A stretch of DNA of 24,801 nucleotides from a virus (IMGVR_UViG_3300041809_000339:1-24801); one strand, 5' to 3'. Positions 1,098 through 24,024 are shown, counted from the first letter of the stretch. Program-made: numbers and translations. The notes: a model not told the origin generated them from the letters alone.

Positions 1098-1613
1098 ATG
1101 TCGATTGGTAATCTAGGCGCTGCCCCAGGCGCGCAGCCCTCTGCAACGCAGGCGCTCGGCGCACCGATCTGGCAGGACACCGGCCCCGCCGCCGGCTCTG
1201 CGCCGGTCGGTAACGCGGGCAACCCCGCGCCAACCGGCGGCGTCACGTACTTCAACGCGAGCTACGAGTCGGTTTTGGCCGCGGTATCGCGCGGTGAGGT
1301 CTCGCTGAACCAGGTCGTCGCGAACGGTAGCCAGTTCGGTGGACTGAACAACGGCCCGGCGGGCAGCAACCTGAGCGCGGGCAACCCGACGCTGCTGCAG
1401 GCGATCTCGCAAGGTCTCCCGCAGAACGGCACCAACGGCCTGAACGGTATCGCCGCTGGCGGCGGCACGGTTAACTCCAGCTACGCGAGCTGCAACAACG
1501 CTCCGGGCACGTTCGACCAGGGATTCGATTCGACCGCGACCATCGACCCCAAGCAGGTCATGAACGCGCCGGGCGTGCAGCTCGTGTCGCCAGCCCAGTA
1601 CGGTGGGAACTAA
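1098..1613 (+). CDS. Gly/Asn/Ala-rich motif-family protein 1 (171 aa)
   Basis: GAGGA sits nine bases before the ATG. The protein is low in charge and rich in Gly, Asn, Ala, Ser and Pro, typical of an extended virion-surface or assembly protein, but no known family is recognised. Two copies of a short motif occur: VLAAVSRGEVSLNQ at residues 59-72 and LLQAISQGLPQN at 99-110. The same pattern (hydrophobic-x-A-x3-G-x-hydrophobic-P-x-N-x-Q) recurs in the following genes. The C-terminus ends in a Pro-Ala-Gln-Tyr-Gly-Gly segment like that of the gene at 2357. I infer a family of tandem paralogues; the function is unknown. Confidence 0.8.
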   Translation: MSIGNLGAAPGAQPSATQALGAPIWQDTGPAAGSAPVGNAGNPAPTGGVTYFNASYESVLAAVSRGEVSLNQVVANGSQFGGLNNGPAGSNLSAGNPTLLQAISQGLPQNGTNGLNGIAAGGGTVNSSYASCNNAPGTFDQGFDSTATIDPKQVMNAPGVQLVSPAQYGGN

Positions 1614-1614
1614 G

Positions 1615-1821
1615 ATGCTCACCGGCTACGGCAACTCGCCGCTCAATATGAACCCGGCGGTTCGGGGCCAGGCCCCGCAGCCGATGAGCCAGATACAACC
1701 TGTCGCGCCCGCGGGCGCCGGCAGGGTAACCGCACTCAACCACGCGCCCGCGATCGCGGGCGGCGGGGAGATGCCGTTCACGCCGACCCCCGGCAACCTT
1801 CCCAGGAACCTTTCACAATGA
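1615..1821 (+). CDS. Short Pro/Gly-rich motif-family protein 2 (68 aa)
   Basis: The ATG at 1615 lies one base after the preceding stop; an in-frame GTG at 1603 is possible but less likely. The protein is small and rich in Pro, Gly and Ala. It ends in GNLPRNLSQ, which matches the second half of the motif shared by its neighbours (compare GNLPTNLQ in the gene at 2844). It may be a shortened paralogue that kept only one half-motif. Its TGA overlaps the next ATG. Confidence 0.65.
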   Translation: MLTGYGNSPLNMNPAVRGQAPQPMSQIQPVAPAGAGRVTALNHAPAIAGGGEMPFTPTPGNLPRNLSQ

Positions 1822-2360
1822 CGCTCTACGGCGCAACTGACCCCGTGGTCATCGGTCAGCCGATGTCCCCCTTCTTCGGCGCACAGAACGGTAACGGCAA
1901 GGCCGCGACCGCGGCCGGCGCCGCCCCCATCGTCCCGCAGCCCACCTCCGCCCCCGGCGTCGGCACCCAGGCGACCGGGATCCAGGTCTCGCTCCTTGAG
2001 GCGGTCGCGCGCGGGTCGATCCCGCGGAACGCGCAGATATCGACCATCGCCGGCCAGGCGGTGTCCGCCGGCATCAGCGCGCTGCAGGGCGACGGCCTCA
2101 CGCTCGATGAGGCGCTCAGCTCCGGTAACGGCGCGCAGGTGAGCCTTGGTGTCGCGGTCGCACCGAACGCAGCGAACCCGAACAGCGTCACAACGATGGG
2201 CGTCAACAACCAGATCTTCGTCGAGGGCGTGGCGAACGCGAACGACGGACTCTCGACCGGCCCGACCCCAACGAACACGGAGTCGATTGTGAGCGCGCCG
2301 GTCGCCGGCTCGACCACGACCGCGAACGTGACCTTGCTCACTGGAGTGTTTCAGGGATGA
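1818..2360 (+). CDS. Gly/Ala-rich motif-family protein 3 (180 aa)
   Basis: It starts in an ATGA overlap with the previous gene. The N-terminus MTLYG matches MTIYG of the next gene, which supports common descent. The clearest copy of the family motif is LLEAVARGSIPRNAQ at residues 59-73; a weaker one, TLDEALSSGNGAQVS, starts near residue 95. The remainder is Ala/Gly/Thr/Asn-rich with few charges and a Val/Thr-rich, probably beta, C-terminal part. No enzyme motif is seen. A virion-associated or assembly role is inferred from composition and the setting among phage structural genes. Confidence 0.8.
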   Translation: MTLYGATDPVVIGQPMSPFFGAQNGNGKAATAAGAAPIVPQPTSAPGVGTQATGIQVSLLEAVARGSIPRNAQISTIAGQAVSAGISALQGDGLTLDEALSSGNGAQVSLGVAVAPNAANPNSVTTMGVNNQIFVEGVANANDGLSTGPTPTNTESIVSAPVAGSTTTANVTLLTGVFQG

Positions 2361-2839
2361 CCATCTACGGCACACCGGGCGGCACACCGCTCAACACCTC
2401 AGGCTTCCAGGGCACCACGCCAGGGAACCCTGTCGGCGCTACCGTGCAGACCTTCATACCAGGGCCGGGGCTATTTCCGCCTAACTCTAACTCGGCCAGC
2501 AACGACACGCAGCTCGCGGCGATCTCCGCCGGACGGCTCCCGATCAACGCGCAGCTCACGAACGCGCTCGCTGGCGCCTCGGCGGCGACCAGCATCGGTG
2601 GCCGTACAAACTCCGTCGCCGAGCGCATGGCGGAAAGCGGAACCAACGGCACAGAGAACACCATCGGTGGCGCTAGCGGGTTCCACCCGATGTGCAACTC
2701 TGCGAACGGCGGGAGCGGTCCCGGCGCTGGCGGAATGAACCAAGACCTCGGCGCGAACACCGGCCGCTCCGACACCCAGTGCGGCACGATGCCCGCGTCC
2801 TTGATCTCGGTGGGCGCACCGATACAGTACCAGGGGTAA
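2357..2839 (+). CDS. Gly/Asn-rich motif-family protein 4 (160 aa)
   Basis: It starts in an ATGA overlap. The motif LAAISAGRLPINAQ lies at residues 53-66, with a degenerate second copy (VAERMAESGTNGTEN) beginning near residue 87. The middle is Gly/Ser/Asn-rich with two Cys residues. The C-terminus ends Ala-Pro-Ile-Gln-Tyr-Gln-Gly, like the end of the gene at 1098. No known domain is recognised; it is placed in the local paralogous family. Confidence 0.8.
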   Translation: MTIYGTPGGTPLNTSGFQGTTPGNPVGATVQTFIPGPGLFPPNSNSASNDTQLAAISAGRLPINAQLTNALAGASAATSIGGRTNSVAERMAESGTNGTENTIGGASGFHPMCNSANGGSGPGAGGMNQDLGANTGRSDTQCGTMPASLISVGAPIQYQG

Positions 2840-2843
2840 GCAC

Positions 2844-3326
2844 ATGACATCAAACTTTTGGGTCGCTACCGGATCGTCGTCCGCGGCGGATACGAACACC
2901 GGGATACCTGGCGCGGCGCCGGTTCCCGGCGGCCAGATGACTGGCAACCCGAACACACAAGACAACGACGCCTCGATGCCGTTGACTCAGCCGCCGAACC
3001 CGCAGAACACACCCTCCCAGTTCATGGCGACGCAGTTCTCGAACGGCAACCTCCCGACGAACCTGCAGCCGACGAACGTGCTCCAAGGTTCCGGCCCCCC
3101 GAATCAGGGCGGCGCCACAGGCGGCGACTCGCTGCTGGCGATGTTGTCGCGCGGGCAGGTGATCAAGAACCAGAGCACCTACGGGCAGGCCGGCTTCACT
3201 CCGCAGAACGGCGGCTGCAGCCCGCAGGCGTCATCGCCCGCCGCGAACGTGACGCAGTCTGTGGCGACCGGGCAAGCGAGCGGCGTGACCTACGCAGCGA
3301 ACAACATGAACCTGTCGGGAATGTAA
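2844..3326 (+). CDS. Pro/Asn/Gln-rich motif-family protein 5 (160 aa)
   Basis: The ATG follows GGGGTAAG by three bases. Two motif copies are visible: FMATQFSNGNLPTNLQ at residues 60-75 and LLAMLSRGQVIKNQ at 97-110. Their spacing of about 37 residues is close to that in the genes at 1098 and 1818. The chain is Pro/Asn/Gln/Gly-rich, with little predicted regular structure outside the motifs. The function is unknown; it is probably part of the same assembly as the preceding paralogues. Confidence 0.8.
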   Translation: MTSNFWVATGSSSAADTNTGIPGAAPVPGGQMTGNPNTQDNDASMPLTQPPNPQNTPSQFMATQFSNGNLPTNLQPTNVLQGSGPPNQGGATGGDSLLAMLSRGQVIKNQSTYGQAGFTPQNGGCSPQASSPAANVTQSVATGQASGVTYAANNMNLSGM

Positions 3327-3329
3327 GGC

Positions 3330-4433
3330 GTGGGGCAGCCGGTCTGCGATGTAAATTTTTCGCTGGTCGGGCTGCTGCTCCACATGAACGGAGCGAACAA
3401 CTCGCAGACGTTTGTCGATTCGAGTTCGAACGCGCTGGCCGTAACGAACTTCAACAATAGTATACAATCGAACACTGAGACGCCGGGGTTCACGCCGACC
3501 ACCGGAGATTTCACCAGCGCTGGCTACAACCAGTACGTGAGCGTACCGCTCACTACGGGCGGCCCGATAGACTTGAGCACAGGCGACTGCACGATAGAGG
3601 GTTGGCTCTATATGCCGACGAGTGTCAACAACGGGTCAGGCAACGTCGGAGGAACAACCAACTATGAGTGCGAATTTTCAGTAAATCAGGGCGCTGGCAC
3701 CTACAAGCTATTGTGCACGTTCTCAGGTGTTACGGCACAGTCTGCCATTGGCTCTGTTCCGAACGCTACGTGGGTGGCTTTCGCTGTAACGGTAGCCGGG
3801 ACGTCGGTTCAGATCTGGATAAATGGTGTGGCTAGCGGGGCCTCCGCAACGATCTTAACCCGCGCGCCGATGACTGACCCGGCGTGGATCTTCGGGTCGC
3901 ATCCCGGCACGCCCATCTTGTGCTATCTGTCGGATATCAGAATTACTAAGGGGTTGGCGCGTTACACCGCGAGCTATACCCCGAGCGGCCCGTTCACTGG
4001 AACGTGCACCCCGAACGTACCGAACGTGGTGGGGCAGACGACGGCGGCCGGCACCGCGGCGATGGTGGCCGCAGGGTACCAGGTGGCTGTTCTTCAGCAG
4101 AACAGCAACGTGGTGCCCGGCGATATCATCATCAGCCACGCGCCAACCAGCGGCGGGCTGTTCCCGCTGAACGGTGTGGTGACGCTCACGGTCTCCGCGG
4201 GGCCGGCGCCCACCGCGGGCGTTGGTGGTGACGTGTGGGGCGCGGGTGGCGGCGGTATCGTAGCCGACAACACACGGAACCCGATCGCGGTAGCGCTGTC
4301 GGCGGCACAACAGCCGACAAACGCAGTATATCAAGGTAATCAGTCAGTGTTGGCGGCAGAAGCGAACGCTACGCTACCGCTGACGATGCAGACGCCGGCC
4401 TACACGGTGCCGACGACACCGACGACGGGGTGA
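3330..4433 (+). CDS. LamG-like lectin and PASTA domain protein (367 aa)
   Basis: The GTG start lies three bases after the previous stop. Residues 12-222 look like a concanavalin A/LamG sandwich of the phage-tail kind: a Leu-Leu-Leu-His-Met-Asn-Gly opening, the central IEGWLYMP strand, a WINGV turn and a closing YLSDIRITKGLARYT. Residues 229-291 match a PASTA repeat (VPNVVGQT, an AAGYQV helix end, VPGDIIISHAP, then VVTLTVSAGP). A Gly-rich linker leads to a C-terminal segment, SVLAAEANATLPLTMQ at 339-354, that resembles the motif of the upstream genes. LamG domains often bind glycans, and PASTA repeats bind peptidoglycan or mediate assembly. A virion adhesin or accessory fibre is inferred. Confidence 0.8.
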   Translation: MGQPVCDVNFSLVGLLLHMNGANNSQTFVDSSSNALAVTNFNNSIQSNTETPGFTPTTGDFTSAGYNQYVSVPLTTGGPIDLSTGDCTIEGWLYMPTSVNNGSGNVGGTTNYECEFSVNQGAGTYKLLCTFSGVTAQSAIGSVPNATWVAFAVTVAGTSVQIWINGVASGASATILTRAPMTDPAWIFGSHPGTPILCYLSDIRITKGLARYTASYTPSGPFTGTCTPNVPNVVGQTTAAGTAAMVAAGYQVAVLQQNSNVVPGDIIISHAPTSGGLFPLNGVVTLTVSAGPAPTAGVGGDVWGAGGGGIVADNTRNPIAVALSAAQQPTNAVYQGNQSVLAAEANATLPLTMQTPAYTVPTTPTTG

Positions 4434-4437
4434 GAAC

Positions 4438-4647
4438 ATGATCAAGCAGATGGGCGCGTCCTTCACGGTGCGCGGGTACCTCCTGATTCTGTTGGTCGCC
4501 GCGGGCGCGCTGAGCGCCGCGACGAACCTGTGGCTCTCTGCGCACCGGACGATTGATTTTTCATGCAGGCCCGAAGGGTCTGCTGCTTATCCGTCTCACA
4601 AGGGCGGCGTTGGTATTGTGCGCATGGGCGCGAGGATAATTTCATGA
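4438..4647 (+). CDS. Small single-pass membrane protein (69 aa)
   Basis: The ATG is preceded by GGGGTGAG, which also carries the upstream stop. Residues 13-33 (Gly-Tyr-Leu-Leu-Ile-Leu-Leu-Val onwards) form a clear hydrophobic helix after a short N-terminus with Lys and Arg, consistent with an N-in signal anchor. The remaining 35 residues are polar and contain one Cys. No family is recognised. The stop overlaps the next ATG. Position among virion genes does not reveal its role; a lysis role cannot be excluded, but a holin is already present at 21484. Confidence 0.6.
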   Translation: MIKQMGASFTVRGYLLILLVAAGALSAATNLWLSAHRTIDFSCRPEGSAAYPSHKGGVGIVRMGARIIS

Positions 4648-5144
4648 CAGCATTGGGCGTCTTCCGAGACGATTTTTACAACGCAGTTTCCGTACTGTCG
4701 CAGAGTCAGTACGCGCCGATCACGTCAGCGACCGCGTCGGTCATCCCGGCGGCCTCTATGGCCGGCGCAGGCGACTGCTACCTTGTCGCGAGCGGCAACG
4801 CCACCGCGACAGCGTACACTACCGACTCCGCGGTCAACATCATCGCACTGATCCAGATAGCGGTGGCGAACGCGTACAAACAAGGGCTCGGCAGCTTCGC
4901 GGCTGGCGTGAACCCACCCCCTGGCGTCCCGAACCTGTTCAACGTCGTCTACACGCTGACGATTGTGAACCTGAACACTGGCACGGGCACAATCACGCTC
5001 ACGGGGGGCGCTGGCGTCACGATCACTGGCACCGCCACGGTGTTGATTGGCGCGGAGCGCGTCTTCACGGTGACGATCAACTCACCGACTACGGTCACAT
5101 TGCAGAGCATGTTCGCGAGCGTAGTCTCGACGTTCACGGCGTAA
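4644..5144 (+). CDS. Probable beta-rich virion protein (166 aa)
   Basis: The ATG at 4644 lies in an ATGA overlap with AGGAT about eight bases upstream, so I prefer it to an ATG at 4563 that would sit inside the previous gene. The N-terminal third is helical (GVFRDDFYNAVSVL). The C-terminal half alternates Thr, Val, Ile and Gly in the manner of beta strands (TITLTGGAGVTITG, VFTVTINSPTTVTL). Such composition is typical of small head decoration or fibre-tip proteins. No named family is recognised. Confidence 0.75.
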   Translation: MTALGVFRDDFYNAVSVLSQSQYAPITSATASVIPAASMAGAGDCYLVASGNATATAYTTDSAVNIIALIQIAVANAYKQGLGSFAAGVNPPPGVPNLFNVVYTLTIVNLNTGTGTITLTGGAGVTITGTATVLIGAERVFTVTINSPTTVTLQSMFASVVSTFTA

Positions 5145-7642: not shown

Positions 7643-7685
7643 ACAGTTAAGTTTCGATTTTTCATTTCGCAGTGAGGTGCGGAGT

Positions 7686-8054
7686 ATGACGAAGATAGAT
7701 TTCAGCCAGCGGTTGCTGGACGATCTTATTGCGGTGGCGCTCCTGGATAAGGCTGAGGGTCGAGTCCTGTTGCCGGATTGGCAGCGGATCCTGCGCGGCA
7801 AAGTTGTCGCGGTCGGGCCCGGACGGATGCTCCCGCTCGGCGAGCGCGCTCCTATGGAGTGCAGGGTAGGAGACATAGTTGCCTTCTCGGCCACCGCAGG
7901 GATGGACGCCGACTACGGCGTCGGCCGCAAGATCCGCCTCATGCGCGACACCGACGTCGACACAATCGAAGAGCCCGGCAAGACGCTGACTGAAACGATC
8001 AATGAAGGCTACATTCGCCTCGTTGAGCGACAGGAAGGGATGGCGCCGCTATGA
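7686..8054 (+). CDS. GroES-like co-chaperonin 1 (122 aa)
   Basis: The ATG at 7686 has GAGG at 7674-7677; an in-frame GTG at 7677 falls on the ribosome site and is rejected. Residues 25-95 follow the GroES (Cpn10) pattern: a mobile-loop-like RVLLPD, then RGKVVAVGPGR, a Pro in the roof region, CRVGDIVAFSATAG, and a final IRLMRDTDVDTI. GroES caps GroEL and closes the folding chamber; T4 gp31 is the classic phage example, needed for coat folding. The ~25 residues at each end are extensions beyond the core. No GroEL gene is present, so it would use the host's. The next gene overlaps by ATGA. Confidence 0.85.
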   Translation: MTKIDFSQRLLDDLIAVALLDKAEGRVLLPDWQRILRGKVVAVGPGRMLPLGERAPMECRVGDIVAFSATAGMDADYGVGRKIRLMRDTDVDTIEEPGKTLTETINEGYIRLVERQEGMAPL

Positions 8055-8593
8055 TCCTCACCGAAGAGCTGGAAGAAGTCGGCCGCCGCACGCGAGTGCT
8101 TCGCGACCGCGTACTCTTGAAGGTATTGCCCTACGTGCACCCGACGCTGGAGACGCCCGGTATAGAGATCAACAAGGGCGTCGTGATCGCGGTCGGCTAC
8201 GGCCGGCGCCAGCGGCGCAAGGTTGCGTTCAAGCAGGAAATCAGCGACGGGCCGCCCGTGCTCGGTCCCGGCGGAAAGGTAATGAAGTTCGCGCCGAGCA
8301 AACTCTCGGGCAAGACGCTGTGGTTCGAAGACGGCCCGGAGACGGGTGCGATAATCCCGATGCAGGTGAAGCCGGGCGATGTCGTCGAATTCAGTTTTCG
8401 CAACATCACGCTGGTTGACTTCGATCGGTGCGGGTTCCCCGGTATAGGGCACCTCGCGTTCATCTGGCAGAAGGCGATTTATTCGGTCGATCCTGACGAG
8501 TCGCTGAACGAGTGCCTGATGTGGCAGCAGAGCGCTGGCTACGATCGGAAGGGTAATTTTATGTCGGGCGCAGAGGATTGGCACCGCGCATGA
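8051..8593 (+). CDS. GroES-like co-chaperonin 2 with large insertion (180 aa)
   Basis: It is translationally coupled to the first co-chaperonin (ATGA). Residues 17-26 (LRDRVLLKVL) match the GroES opening strand. GVVIAVGYGRR, VKPGDVVEFS and IWQKAIYSVDPDES follow the remaining core strands. Compared with GroES there is an extra segment at roughly residues 56-103 between the second and third core blocks, and a C-terminal tail of about 30 residues. The mobile loop region is short. The two adjacent genes differ strongly, so a mixed ring or separate clients is possible. Fold assignment is by motif pattern; function is inferred. Confidence 0.75.
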   Translation: MILTEELEEVGRRTRVLRDRVLLKVLPYVHPTLETPGIEINKGVVIAVGYGRRQRRKVAFKQEISDGPPVLGPGGKVMKFAPSKLSGKTLWFEDGPETGAIIPMQVKPGDVVEFSFRNITLVDFDRCGFPGIGHLAFIWQKAIYSVDPDESLNECLMWQQSAGYDRKGNFMSGAEDWHRA

Positions 8594-17446: not shown

Positions 17447-17881
17447 GTGGCTCAGACCAACCAGCAGATCATCACCGAAGCGTTTCAGATTCTTGGCGTC
17501 GTCCGCGAAGGCAGACAACCTACGCCCACGCAATCCGTGAACGGTATGACGATCCTCAACGACAACCTGCTCACCAACATGCGTGACGGTTGGGGGAACC
17601 TGGGCTGGTACCCGCAGACTGTTGCTCAGCTCAACAGCATCTCACCTCTCAAAGACGAAGACCTGGCAGACGTCAAGTATTGCCTGGCAGCTTGGCTCTC
17701 GGTTCGCTACGGTATCACCATAGCGCCGCCGATGAGCCCTGACGATGATTTCTCATTGGGCGGCATGATCCGTACCGCGTTCCGTCACCTGACGAAGCGG
17801 TACCTGAAGTACGCCGAGTGCGACCTCGGGGAACTGTCTCGCCCGCAAGGTGGCCCGTGGGGCGGCCCGAACTGGCTGTAA
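17447..17881 (+). CDS. P22 gp4-like head-tail adaptor (144 aa)
   Basis: AGAGG precedes the GTG start. The pattern ITEAFQILGVVREGRQPTPT...MTILNDNLLTNMRDGWGNLG is the recognisable N-terminal half of the P22 gp4 tail accessory family: helix, GVV-x-EG turn, second helix, long helix. The later ADVKYCLAAWLSVRYG helix also fits. In P22, twelve gp4 copies bind the portal after packaging and start tail assembly. P22 gp4 is 166 residues, so the length is similar. The gp10-like gene follows four bases after the stop, the same order as in P22-type phages. Confidence 0.85.
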   Translation: MAQTNQQIITEAFQILGVVREGRQPTPTQSVNGMTILNDNLLTNMRDGWGNLGWYPQTVAQLNSISPLKDEDLADVKYCLAAWLSVRYGITIAPPMSPDDDFSLGGMIRTAFRHLTKRYLKYAECDLGELSRPQGGPWGGPNWL

Positions 17882-17884
17882 CGC

Positions 17885-19429
17885 ATGGCACAGGCGCAAC
17901 CGACCGAAGTACCGCTGCCGCTTGCGACGTATCAGCTGGCCGATCTTCGCGCCGGCTCGAAGCGTTTGATCGGGTGCTACCCGGAGCCGGCGCAGCAGAC
18001 GCAGCCTGACGACGAGGAAGATCAGCAGCCCGCGTCACTGCGGCGCTGGCCTGGCATATCGACGTTCACCCCGAGCGGACTGACCAACCCGCTACGCGGA
18101 ATTTGGGAGATGGCCGGCGTCGTGTACGCGGTCGTCGGGTTCGATCTTTACACGGTGTCGAGCGCTGGCGCGTTCACGCTGGTACCAGGATCGGCGAGCG
18201 GTATCATCGGCACCGGCTTCGTGCGCATGACCGACAACGGCGCGTGCCTCGTCGTGCTGGTGCCGGGCACCGACACCTGCTACACGTACACGCCGTTCAC
18301 GGGCGGCAGCGGTGTGCAGCAGCTGACGAACTCGTTCTTCCTGACGTTGGGCGGCGCGCTCGACTGCTGGTTCGTCGACAGCTACATTGTGTTCCTAGCG
18401 AACAATAATAACGGCCAGGGCTCGTACACGTTCTTCAACGACGACGGTCGGCAGGTGTCTGGCAACGCGCAGATCACCTTCACCACCGCCGCATCGTTCA
18501 ATCGACAGTTCGGCACGGACCCGTTCTACGGGATGTGCATCGACCACCGCGAAATCTTGATGTTCGGCTCGCGCTCGTCGGAAGGCTTTGTGAACACCGG
18601 CAACCCTACCGGCACACCATTCAGCGCGGCCGCCGACACGTACATGACGTACGGCGTGCACCCGAGCTGTCCCTACAGCATCGCGCTGCAGGACAACTCG
18701 GCGATATGGGTGGCGAACGATCTCACGGTGCGACGTCGCAACGGGCAGACGCCGACGCGCATCTCGACCGCTGGCGTCGAAGCTATTCTCTCGAACGCGA
18801 ACAAGCGCGGCCTGCTCACGGGCATGTACGCGCTGTCATCGCCCGCTGGCGGCCCGACGTGGAACGGTCACCCGTTCTACGTGCTGACGATACCGCTCGC
18901 TGAGCGCACGATAGTCTACGACTGCGTGACGCAGCAGTGGTTCGATCTGGTGTCGGTGCTCAACGGTCAGGAGGTGCAGTATCGCGGCCTCGCGTACTTC
19001 AACGGCTTCGGCAAGCAGCTGATCGGCGACTCTGAGAGCGGCACCATCGGGTACCTGGACGACACCGTCCAAACTGAATTCGGCAACGCGAACGCGCCAG
19101 TGGTGTGCGCGTTCACGACACAGCCGCTGTACAAACAGAACAACCGCCAGATCGTGCGCCGCGTTGAAGCGGTCGTGACGGCGGGCGCGGGCCCGACGCC
19201 GGCCGTCGCTCCGCGCATCAGCCTGCTGCTCTCGGACAACTGGGGCCAAACCTTCGATGTGTCCGGCGACGATTCGCAGACGCTCGGCGTGCCGGGCGAC
19301 ACCTCGAACCGCGCGGTGTGGTGGAACCTTGGACAGTACTATAGCCTCGTGCTTCAGTTCCGCGTGACGGACGCGTCGCCAACGTTCACGGTCGATGTGA
19401 CCGCGTACGTCGAACCCTGCAAGTGGTAA
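17885..19429 (+). CDS. P22 gp10-like DNA stabilisation/tail hub protein (514 aa)
   Basis: The ATG lies three bases after the previous stop. The N-terminus (LPLATYQLADLRAGSKRLIGCYPE) and the RRWPGISTF segment are typical of gp10-like packaged-DNA stabilisation proteins. The body shows repeated beta blades (GIWEMAGVVYAVVGFDLYTV, CWFVDSYIVFLANN, then IVYDCVTQQWFDL), consistent with a beta-propeller. In P22, a gp10 hexamer sits between gp4 and the needle/tailspikes and keeps DNA in the head. P22 gp10 is 472 residues. Identification is by pattern and gene order. Confidence 0.85.
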   Translation: MAQAQPTEVPLPLATYQLADLRAGSKRLIGCYPEPAQQTQPDDEEDQQPASLRRWPGISTFTPSGLTNPLRGIWEMAGVVYAVVGFDLYTVSSAGAFTLVPGSASGIIGTGFVRMTDNGACLVVLVPGTDTCYTYTPFTGGSGVQQLTNSFFLTLGGALDCWFVDSYIVFLANNNNGQGSYTFFNDDGRQVSGNAQITFTTAASFNRQFGTDPFYGMCIDHREILMFGSRSSEGFVNTGNPTGTPFSAAADTYMTYGVHPSCPYSIALQDNSAIWVANDLTVRRRNGQTPTRISTAGVEAILSNANKRGLLTGMYALSSPAGGPTWNGHPFYVLTIPLAERTIVYDCVTQQWFDLVSVLNGQEVQYRGLAYFNGFGKQLIGDSESGTIGYLDDTVQTEFGNANAPVVCAFTTQPLYKQNNRQIVRRVEAVVTAGAGPTPAVAPRISLLLSDNWGQTFDVSGDDSQTLGVPGDTSNRAVWWNLGQYYSLVLQFRVTDASPTFTVDVTAYVEPCKW

Positions 19430-21909: not shown

Positions 21910-24024
21910 GTGGGGCAGACGATTCCGCCTTTTCTTGCTGGCAGTCTGGAGACAGCGGACCCGAGCGCGTTCAGCCCTATGCCGCTGGCGTCGATGCTGG
22001 GCGGAGCGAGCGGGCCCATCGCTTCTTTTTGGAATAATCTGCAGGCATCTCAAGATCAGGCAGTAAATCAGTATGGTGGCACGGTCGAATCTGACCTGAG
22101 CAGCGGAAACTATACTGGGGCGTGGAACGCCGCCGTCGCGTCCGAGGGGGCTATTAAAAGCCCCGCGGGCGGCATCATTGCAACTAACTCCGCCACCACC
22201 GACCCACTCGTGCAGATGATGGAGACAAGCAGCGGATTACAGGCGCTTGATCCGTCGATGACGATGACACCCGCACAGATGAATGCCTACTATCAGGCAT
22301 TCGGAAAAGCGACGCAGGACAATACGACTGGAGCTAGTACGACACTCGCCGGGTCTAATCCGTACGGCCAGTGGGGTAATGTCGTCAACTCGGTATCTGG
22401 CTTAAGCTCCGCCGCAGCCACGAACGCAAAGGCGGGAGGTCTCGCGAACATACAACAGTATGCGGGCGCTCGCCCTTCGCCGAGCTATCCGACGTGGGCC
22501 CCCGGAGTGTTCGCCGATATCGTGCTCGCGGGCATGGGCGGAGTCGGCGCGGCGGCGCTCGCACCAGAGTTATCTGCCGGCGCCGCAGTACTTTCTGGAG
22601 GCGCGACCGGAGCGGCAACTGGGGCGATCGGCGCGACCGCCGCGGGCTCGCTCGTAGGCGCTGCCGGGGGCGCTATCAGTGGCGACATCAGCGGCGGGAA
22701 CATCGGCAAGTCTGCACTCATGGGCGCCATCGGTGGCGGCCTTGCCGGAGCCGCCCCGAGCATTTCGAACTCTCTTCAAAACGCGGGGCTCGGCAACACA
22801 GCCGCCAACGCAATAACTAAGGGCGGCACCAGCGCAGTAGCTGGTGCGGCAAGCGGACAGAACCCGCTCGTCAGCGGGCTATCCGCCGGGGTCGGGTCTG
22901 CGGTAGGGGGCGCCACGGGGAGCAACATCGCCGGCTCGGCGGCTGGACAGGTTGCGTCAGGGTTAGCTAAGTCAGCGTTTAACCCGACACAACAGGGCGC
23001 GCCACAAGTGGGCACGGCACCTTCGATGAGTAACATTGGAAACATCAACGGCGCAGCCGTAGGTGGACAGGGGAACAGTACAGGCATGGGCAACATAGAC
23101 ACATCTCTCGCGAGCACGATCACGGGCGCGTTGCCCGGCGTGCTGCAAGCTGGCGTGGGTACGGCCGGGTCGCTCGCGGCCGCTAACGCGGAGACGAACG
23201 CATACGGCAACGCGATCACCACGCAGCAGAACACCCTCGGCAACATCAACAATCTGTGGTCGACGCAGCAAGGTCTCGGCGCTGGCGCCGACACTGCGCT
23301 CGGTAGCGCGCTCGGCACGAACGGCGCAGCTCCGAACTATTCTGGCTTCGAGAACATGCCCGGTTACCAGTTCGCTGTGAACCAGGGTACGCAAGCCATA
23401 CAGCGCCAGGCCGCTGCGATGGGTAGCGCGTACACGCCGAACACTGCAGCCGCTGTCGGTCAGTATGTGACTGGCACCGCCGCGAGTGATTACAATACGT
23501 ACATCAGTCAGCTGATGGGCGCGGCCGGACTCGGCAGCACCGCGAACACGCAGCTGCAGGGCGCCAACATCAACGCTGGCAACAACATCAGCACGCTGCA
23601 AGGGAACATCGGCAAGGCTCAGGCGCAAGGCTATCTCGGCACCGCCAGCTCGGTGGGTAGCCTCTTCGGAACGAACGGTGCCGGCACGGGCTTAATCAAC
23701 GCTGCGGGCAACGCTGCGGCCAACGCGGTCATCCCCAGCGGGGTGGCAGGTGTGGGTGGCATAAGCTCCAACGGACTGAACAACGATATCGGCTCGTCCA
23801 GCACGATGGCGCCCTACGACCCGTCCGCGCTCGGGCTAAACGGCCCGACGTTCGACCCAGGCATGAGCAACGCCGACATGGGGCTGAACGGCAGCGGCGT
23901 ACCGAACTCTATCGCCGCCAACGGAAACACCGGCAACATCTTGGACAGCTTGAACAACTCCAGCTTCGCTAATGCGTCCAATAACGGCGCCTCAAGCTAC
24001 TTTAACTTTGCGGGGACGAGTTAA
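21910..24024 (+). CDS. Glycine-zipper DNA ejection (pilot) protein candidate (704 aa)
   Basis: The GTG start follows the holin by six bases. Residues about 199-290 form a hydrophobic Gly/Ala zipper (GAATGAIGATAAGSLVGAAG, GKSALMGAIGGGLAGAAP), as in proteins that insert in membranes. Near residue 478 a segment FENMPGYQFAVNQGTQAI, then GQYVTGTAASDYNTYISQL, resembles a module found in podovirus DNA-transfer proteins. The ends are Asn/Gly/Ser-rich. In P22-like phages, gp7, gp16 and gp20 are packaged and ejected to help DNA cross the envelope. I infer that role; no lytic transglycosylase motif is seen. Confidence 0.7.
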   Translation: MGQTIPPFLAGSLETADPSAFSPMPLASMLGGASGPIASFWNNLQASQDQAVNQYGGTVESDLSSGNYTGAWNAAVASEGAIKSPAGGIIATNSATTDPLVQMMETSSGLQALDPSMTMTPAQMNAYYQAFGKATQDNTTGASTTLAGSNPYGQWGNVVNSVSGLSSAAATNAKAGGLANIQQYAGARPSPSYPTWAPGVFADIVLAGMGGVGAAALAPELSAGAAVLSGGATGAATGAIGATAAGSLVGAAGGAISGDISGGNIGKSALMGAIGGGLAGAAPSISNSLQNAGLGNTAANAITKGGTSAVAGAASGQNPLVSGLSAGVGSAVGGATGSNIAGSAAGQVASGLAKSAFNPTQQGAPQVGTAPSMSNIGNINGAAVGGQGNSTGMGNIDTSLASTITGALPGVLQAGVGTAGSLAAANAETNAYGNAITTQQNTLGNINNLWSTQQGLGAGADTALGSALGTNGAAPNYSGFENMPGYQFAVNQGTQAIQRQAAAMGSAYTPNTAAAVGQYVTGTAASDYNTYISQLMGAAGLGSTANTQLQGANINAGNNISTLQGNIGKAQAQGYLGTASSVGSLFGTNGAGTGLINAAGNAAANAVIPSGVAGVGGISSNGLNNDIGSSSTMAPYDPSALGLNGPTFDPGMSNADMGLNGSGVPNSIAANGNTGNILDSLNNSSFANASNNGASSYFNFAGTS

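Follow-up and report, generated by a model that had tools for sequence, protein, structure and literature searches.

The 24.8-kb IMG/VR virus record IMGVR_UViG_3300041809_000339 (24,801 nt, in the following called the window) carries a cassette of genes which we name A to E. Sequence comparison comes close to proving that the first four, A-D, encode tandem paralogues which arose by local duplication, and these proteins share a doubled short motif as well as a C-terminal signature. The fifth gene, E, is a variable module on a conserved anchor, and the anchor type switches along with the adhesin or fibre. The source virus is a P22-like podovirus from soil and belongs to a mostly soil, uncultivated clade.

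The motif [LIV][LM]xAxSRGx[IV]PxN is located at residues 51-75 in all four of A-D. A second copy follows 33-38 residues after the first; A and D have it in clear form, whereas in B (LDEALSSGNG) and C (VAERMAESG) it is degenerate. The statement of the initial annotation that four genes carry two copies is thus right if the degenerate copies are counted. The motif profile derived from relatives (consensus SGDSLLAAVSRGQIPANQQPTN) reaches more than 20 bits in the majority of members of the four gene families, compared to at most 8.4 bits in opposite-strand open reading frames. Because the proteins are Gly/Asn/Pro-rich, each family was scored with a gapless profile trained on the other families only, and 1000 shuffles of each window protein with the same composition served as control. 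These leave-one-family-out scores are 24.7 (A), 21.3 (B), 15.8 (C) and 20.7 bits (D); two of the 1000 shuffles scored as high as the window protein for C and none for A, B and D. With a gapless profile from all families A-E reach 21.4-35.2 bits and the other 29 window genes all stay at or below 12.9 bits. The recurrence noticed earlier in these genes and in the adhesin gene is confirmed, in A-D with scores above those of shuffles, and the motif is strongly retained in the orthologue alignments of A-D. An earlier leave-one-family-out run with HMMER local profiles was mixed (A and D strong, B, C and E weak) because the matches were truncated, and the gapless profile was used instead. The single-motif evidence for B and C hinges on that choice, of which the family comparison is independent. 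A half copy that had been read in the gene at 1603 did not hold up: its profile score is low and no relative keeps the gene, which was therefore rejected as a half member. This open reading frame of 72 amino acids between A and B (window 1603-1821) looks like a record-specific insertion.

The family profiles were compared with hhalign, using 30 column-shuffled profiles as controls. Five of the six pairs lie above these controls, namely A-B (E-value 6e-5), A-C (2e-6), B-C (1e-6, aligned from residue 1), A-D (1e-3) and C-D (6e-4); only B-D is marginal, at noise level. In the A-B, A-C and B-C alignments motif 2 is matched up as well as motif 1. The similarity among the genes exceeds what composition would give, a point on which the initial annotation had made its proposal depend, both in the leave-one-family-out scores and in hhalign. 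A further common feature, which had been overlooked, is the C-terminus. In total 67 of 74 proteins end with [YF]xG plus at most one residue (A 18/18, B 15/15, C 19/19, D 15/22), and the [YF]xG(N) C-terminus is present in none of the 31 other window genes.

Family profiles detected the order A-B-C-D in 23 of the 28 non-redundant records spanning the region, nearly all of them from uncultivated P22-type relatives. The exceptions are L085 and L086 without B, L012 without A and most of B, L069 without C, and L064 with D and E alone, although the contig of L064 extends upstream of them. In L012 (2738-2899) and L091 A and most of B are gone and C, D, E and a fibre gene are retained, apparently a natural deletion. 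Virus records as long as 61 kb showed the motif only within the cassette, and none was found in L080, the coat of which is 45% identical. The more distant L076 (TerL 55%) encodes between portal and scaffold a lone short version, a protein of 92 amino acids with motif 1 (ITILAAMANGSLPAQTQ), then a stretch resembling motif 2 (GNGAVNPTIASLISNG) and then the C-terminal NYGGN. Its orthologue of 94 amino acids in L178 (68%) is encoded immediately before scaffold and coat. Against the C family profile these lone proteins score 11-13 bits, all shuffles remaining at or below 7.2. The lone version connects the family with the head module and is in keeping with an expansion by duplication, presumably from one copy to several. 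The cross-family profile similarity, the aligned motif copies, the shared C-terminus, the conserved synteny and the lone version in distant relatives make the local duplication, as already suggested in the initial annotation, well supported.

Pfam gave no match for A-D, and the PHROG and PDB matches are at chance level only (proteasome, E-value 0.15; phrog_35546, E-value 0.006 in one of 18 members). The profiles of A and D matched no PDB chain significantly and thus no decoration protein of solved structure, and among the 50,697 phage records of INPHARED there was no match for A, B, D and E. The assignment of a named fold or family to A-D was dropped, as Pfam, PHROGs and PDB yielded nothing beyond chance. 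These searches agree with the earlier statement that no named family has this motif, and they support the view that A-D are covered by no described family. A-D are rich in Gly, Asn, Ser, Thr and Ala, and charged residues (DEKR) make up 4-6% compared to 14% in the coat and 25% in the portal. AlphaFold2 gave no confident fold, with a mean predicted local distance difference test score (pLDDT) of 43 for A (18 sequences) and 39 for B (15). In both proteins, modelled separately, helices are predicted at residues 59-64 and ~96-101, which are the two motif sites, and A has an extra helix at 70-76. A common helix cap consists of a Gly at the end of the helix, with a hydrophobic residue and Pro after it.

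In the window, gene E (gene 3330) combines a Laminin_G_3 domain (37.6 bits, Pfam cut-off 27.6) with a PASTA domain, which at 22.8 bits is just under the cut-off of 23.2 but in the L003 and L040 orthologues attains 46-50 bits. The anchor consists of the last ~70 residues (GGDxWGANGG ... QSVLAAMSxG ... PTTP) and includes a motif copy at residues 339-354. In orthologous adhesins this copy reads SVLAALANGNIPLSQ (L075) and QSILAAMSQG (L053), and the adhesins of L003 and L040 were recovered by a motif search (E-values 3e-4 and 5e-4), the query of which included the adhesin motifs of the window, L053 and L075. Anchor variants are found behind other cargo, i.e. PASTA alone (L029, L075), BNR-like repeats (L064, L069) or a Gly-rich domain (L108), or they are free-standing. 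In seven of seven records with a free-standing E of the ADSQL/ASQL type the next gene encodes a fibre whose N-terminus reads GDSxKxAFDK, compared to none of ~22 with other E types. The E types are scattered on the TerL tree, and for ADSQL four changes are required; well-supported branches force at least three of these. The tree is only partly resolved, and the records are not independent. The DxWGANGG pattern also matches unrelated proteins in viral contigs, which were set aside by eye. Directly 3' of the adhesin slot lies a small gene with one hydrophobic stretch (window 4438-4647), and comparable small genes are found after a number of other E genes, fused or free-standing (L064, L125/L144, L069, L108/L152).

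The comparisons show that A-D are paralogues and conserved, that the motif is confined to the cassette and that E varies together with its cargo. As to function, we hold with about even confidence that A-D, most likely virion proteins of the P22-like podovirus, dock as pegs on a shared partner and that the last slot displays adhesins. The virion context is suggested by the P22-type head genes of the window and by the lone version beside portal and scaffold. A-D would stay extended (disordered) until assembly, and each would then plug its two motifs and its C-terminal tail into equivalent sites of one virion partner, for which the coat lattice or the portal/neck are candidates. Several different proteins could in this way mount on one scaffold and fold on docking, and the E slot would display the host-binding part, which varies and is either fused to the anchor (LamG/PASTA, BNR-like, Gly-rich) or encoded beside it as a separate fibre. 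The initial annotation had proposed that the motif is an interaction peptide which docks the subunits, including the adhesin, to one partner. This is plausible because the models show helices only at the motif sites and the anchor is constant while the cargo varies. More tentatively, A-D might represent an undescribed peg family, tandemly expanded from one short head-module protein to a kit of four to five members, in which the doubled helix-glycine motif and the aromatic-glycine C-terminus would be a standard plug by which equivalent sockets could hold several different proteins and an exchangeable adhesin cassette.

The following points weigh against the docking of A-D as virion pegs or limit the evidence on the motif and on E. 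To begin with, we infer the virion membership of A-D, their docking, their partner and their location in the virion. The single-motif support is uneven: all 18 orthologues of A score above every pooled shuffle (thousands), compared to 8 of 15 for B, 5 of 19 for C and one of 22 for D; this evidence is strong for A and fair for B and C, and that for D rests on motif 2. Of the lone proteins only the one of L076 exceeds the shuffles with the B profile, and neither does so with the profiles of A and D. The pLDDT values of 43 and 39 come from shallow alignments, thus "disordered" may mean just "not predictable". The E-anchor profile aligns to A and D exactly on the motif, but weakly (E-values 0.013 and 0.08). 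The ADSQL-type E gave the best of the E-type matches (A profile, E-value 0.005), which is weak as well, and the SNAG-type E had no profile match to A-D. Therefore we call E a likely, unproven relative. The adhesin copy of the initial annotation is kept in orthologues, but its kinship to A-D is suggestive only, and including the adhesin in the docking set would depend on this weak, in-register match.

The main rival is that the motif serves as a subunit-subunit contact, with A-E assembling mainly among themselves into a single hetero-oligomeric appendage (collar, whisker or fibre shaft), in which a shared bundle and not a separate partner would take up the helices. The fixed order and the near-constant co-occurrence of A-E would fit such a mutual assembly, and the same two short helices in A-D are what pseudo-equivalent subunits would have. 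However, members are missing in L085/L086, L012, L069 and L064, so the full hetero-set is not needed, and distant relatives carry a single lone copy. We consider this reading rather unlikely, with some weight left to it.

It is improbable that the motif is a head-targeting signal and that A-D are packaged in the capsid and ejected like the internal proteins of T4. A-D are tandem small proteins with one short element in common, for which T4 offers a precedent (PMC3012670), and the lone version adjoins portal and scaffold genes. Nevertheless, the A-D motif is internal (residues 51-75), has a second copy and is accompanied by a conserved C-terminus, and the charge is very low (DEKR 4-6%). Further, a related-looking motif is found in the LamG/PASTA adhesin, which should be external, and an ejection-type gene lies elsewhere (21910).

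Slightly more improbable still, A-D could be non-virion proteins, small and secreted or intracellular, which alter the infected host and bind a host partner with the motif. This would agree with the lack of virion proteomics for the clade and of homologues of known function. On the other side, A-D are co-directional with the adhesin slot and overlap or abut, with the head genes downstream of the cassette; they are conserved across phages with differing adhesins, and the lone version is placed within the head gene block. A protease processing site in maturation, to which the short conserved S-R-G core could point, was considered and is very improbable, as the conservation spans a helix-like register and the PxN on the far side, the R is frequently N, S or A, and there is no protease among the genes examined.

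If the docking of A-D on a common partner is true, tandem duplicates of a single short, disordered protein would supply a podovirus with a surface or collar made of several proteins, and a plug-in slot would exchange lectin-like, PASTA, sialidase-like or fibre modules. It would further provide a searchable motif for a mostly soil, uncultivated clade whose accessory proteins here carry no annotation, and a simple way to test how receptor-binding modules are exchanged while the rest of the particle stays as it is.

Table 1. Genes and features of the A-E cassette (window coordinates; res, residues; aa, amino acids).
Feature	Position	Strand	Details
Gene A	1098..1613	+	171 aa; GNxGAAPGAQP segment at the N-terminus, both motifs, C-terminal QYGGN; 18 aligned sequences
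A motif 1, SVLAAVSRGEVSLNQV	1269..1316	+	res 58-73
A motif 2, NPTLLQAISQGLPQNG	1383..1430	+	res 96-111
A C-terminal tail QYGGN	1596..1610	+	
Gene B	1818..2360	+	180 aa; 15 aligned sequences
B motif 1, SLLEAVARGSIPRNAQ	1989..2036	+	res 58-73
B motif 2, degenerate, GLTLDEALSSGNGAQ	2094..2138	+	res 93-107; paired with A motif 2 by hhalign
B C-terminal tail GVFQG	2343..2357	+	
Gene C	2357..2839	+	160 aa; start overlaps B stop (ATGA); 19 aligned sequences
C motif 1, TQLAAISAGRLPINAQ	2507..2554	+	res 51-66
C motif 2, degenerate, RTNSVAERMAESGTNG	2603..2650	+	res 83-98
C C-terminal tail IQYQG	2822..2836	+	
Gene D	2844..3326	+	160 aa; 22 aligned sequences
D motif 1, FMATQFSNGNLPTNLQ	3021..3068	+	res 60-75
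D motif 2, SLLAMLSRGQVIKNQS	3129..3176	+	res 96-111
D C-terminal tail NLSGM	3309..3323	+	orthologues most often NYTGN
Gene E, fused form	3330..4433	+	LamG (res 66-205), PASTA (230-289) and conserved C-terminal anchor
E anchor GVGGDVWGAGGGG ... PIAVALSAAQQPTNAV ... SVLAAEANATLPLTMQ ... TPAYTVPTTPTTG	4218..4430	+	res 297-367

The window also encodes a P22-type head module with TerL, portal (PHROG 156), scaffold (PHROG 8865) and coat (PHROG 283; Pfam P22_CoatProtein, PF11651), a head closure protein of the gp10/Hc3 type (PHROG match) and an ejection-type protein (at 21910). Portal, scaffold, coat and gp10-type genes are arranged in the P22-type order; the gp10-like gene lies at 17885 and a gp4-like gene at 17447. 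The best matches of portal and coat among INPHARED phages, which are P22-like, have only ~30-35% identity, and related TerL sequences occur in at least 80 places in IMG/VR. The single genome-collection match is a contig in a Solirubrobacterales metagenome-assembled genome from a bog, which is possibly mis-binned and was not used as host evidence. Two tRNA genes lie close to the left end of the window, and a partial open reading frame with YHTHP at 1-321 has a weak DUF4329 match under the cut-off (E-value 0.009). Nearly every relative retains the small protein encoded at 4563-5144 (MTALGVFRDDFYNA...). It may be another fibre base, since L075 joins a related domain to a region that is Gly-rich and tail-tip-like. 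Two adjoining genes at 7677-8054 and 8051-8593 are Cpn10 (GroES)-like (Pfam E-values 7e-8 and 1e-3, the second just under the cut-off), and both are retained beside TerS in relatives.

With P22-like podoviruses the virus shares the PF11651 coat and the PHROGs of portal and gp10-type head closure, whereas A, B, D and E are without match in the P22-like phages of INPHARED. The capsid targeting sequence of T4 is N-terminal, whereas the A-D motif is internal. Like A-D, the T4 internal proteins are several small phage proteins with one common short targeting element, and the cassette differs from them in where the element lies, in its doubling, in the low charge and in being linked to an adhesin anchor (PMC3012670). 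Phage capsid decoration proteins are small and head-mounted, some of them aiding target-cell binding (PMC7602432); compared to those described there, the cassette comprises four paralogues and not one or two proteins, and its capsid location is putative.

In the K1-5/SP6, G7C, Klebsiella KP32 and PhiK64-1 groups of phages second receptor-binding proteins are thought to attach to adapters by a short conserved peptide (PMC6872550). A short peptide there enables different virion proteins to attach to one adapter while the receptor-binding parts are exchanged, and the same may hold here. In those systems large receptor-binding proteins carry the peptide at their N-terminus, and a T4gp10-like domain often serves as the socket. 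In the cassette, on the other hand, the motif lies internally and in two copies on small paralogues of low complexity that have their C-terminus in common: it is found at residues 51-75 and ~83-111 of A-D and C-terminally in the adhesin. The common peptide is evident in A-D and less so in the E anchor. Pfam detected no T4gp10-like domain in the window proteins scanned, which represent part of the genes of an incomplete record. Because the motif differs in position and doubling, we suggest that the cassette works like these systems and not that it is a member of them, and conserved-peptide attachment would be its nearest working parallel.

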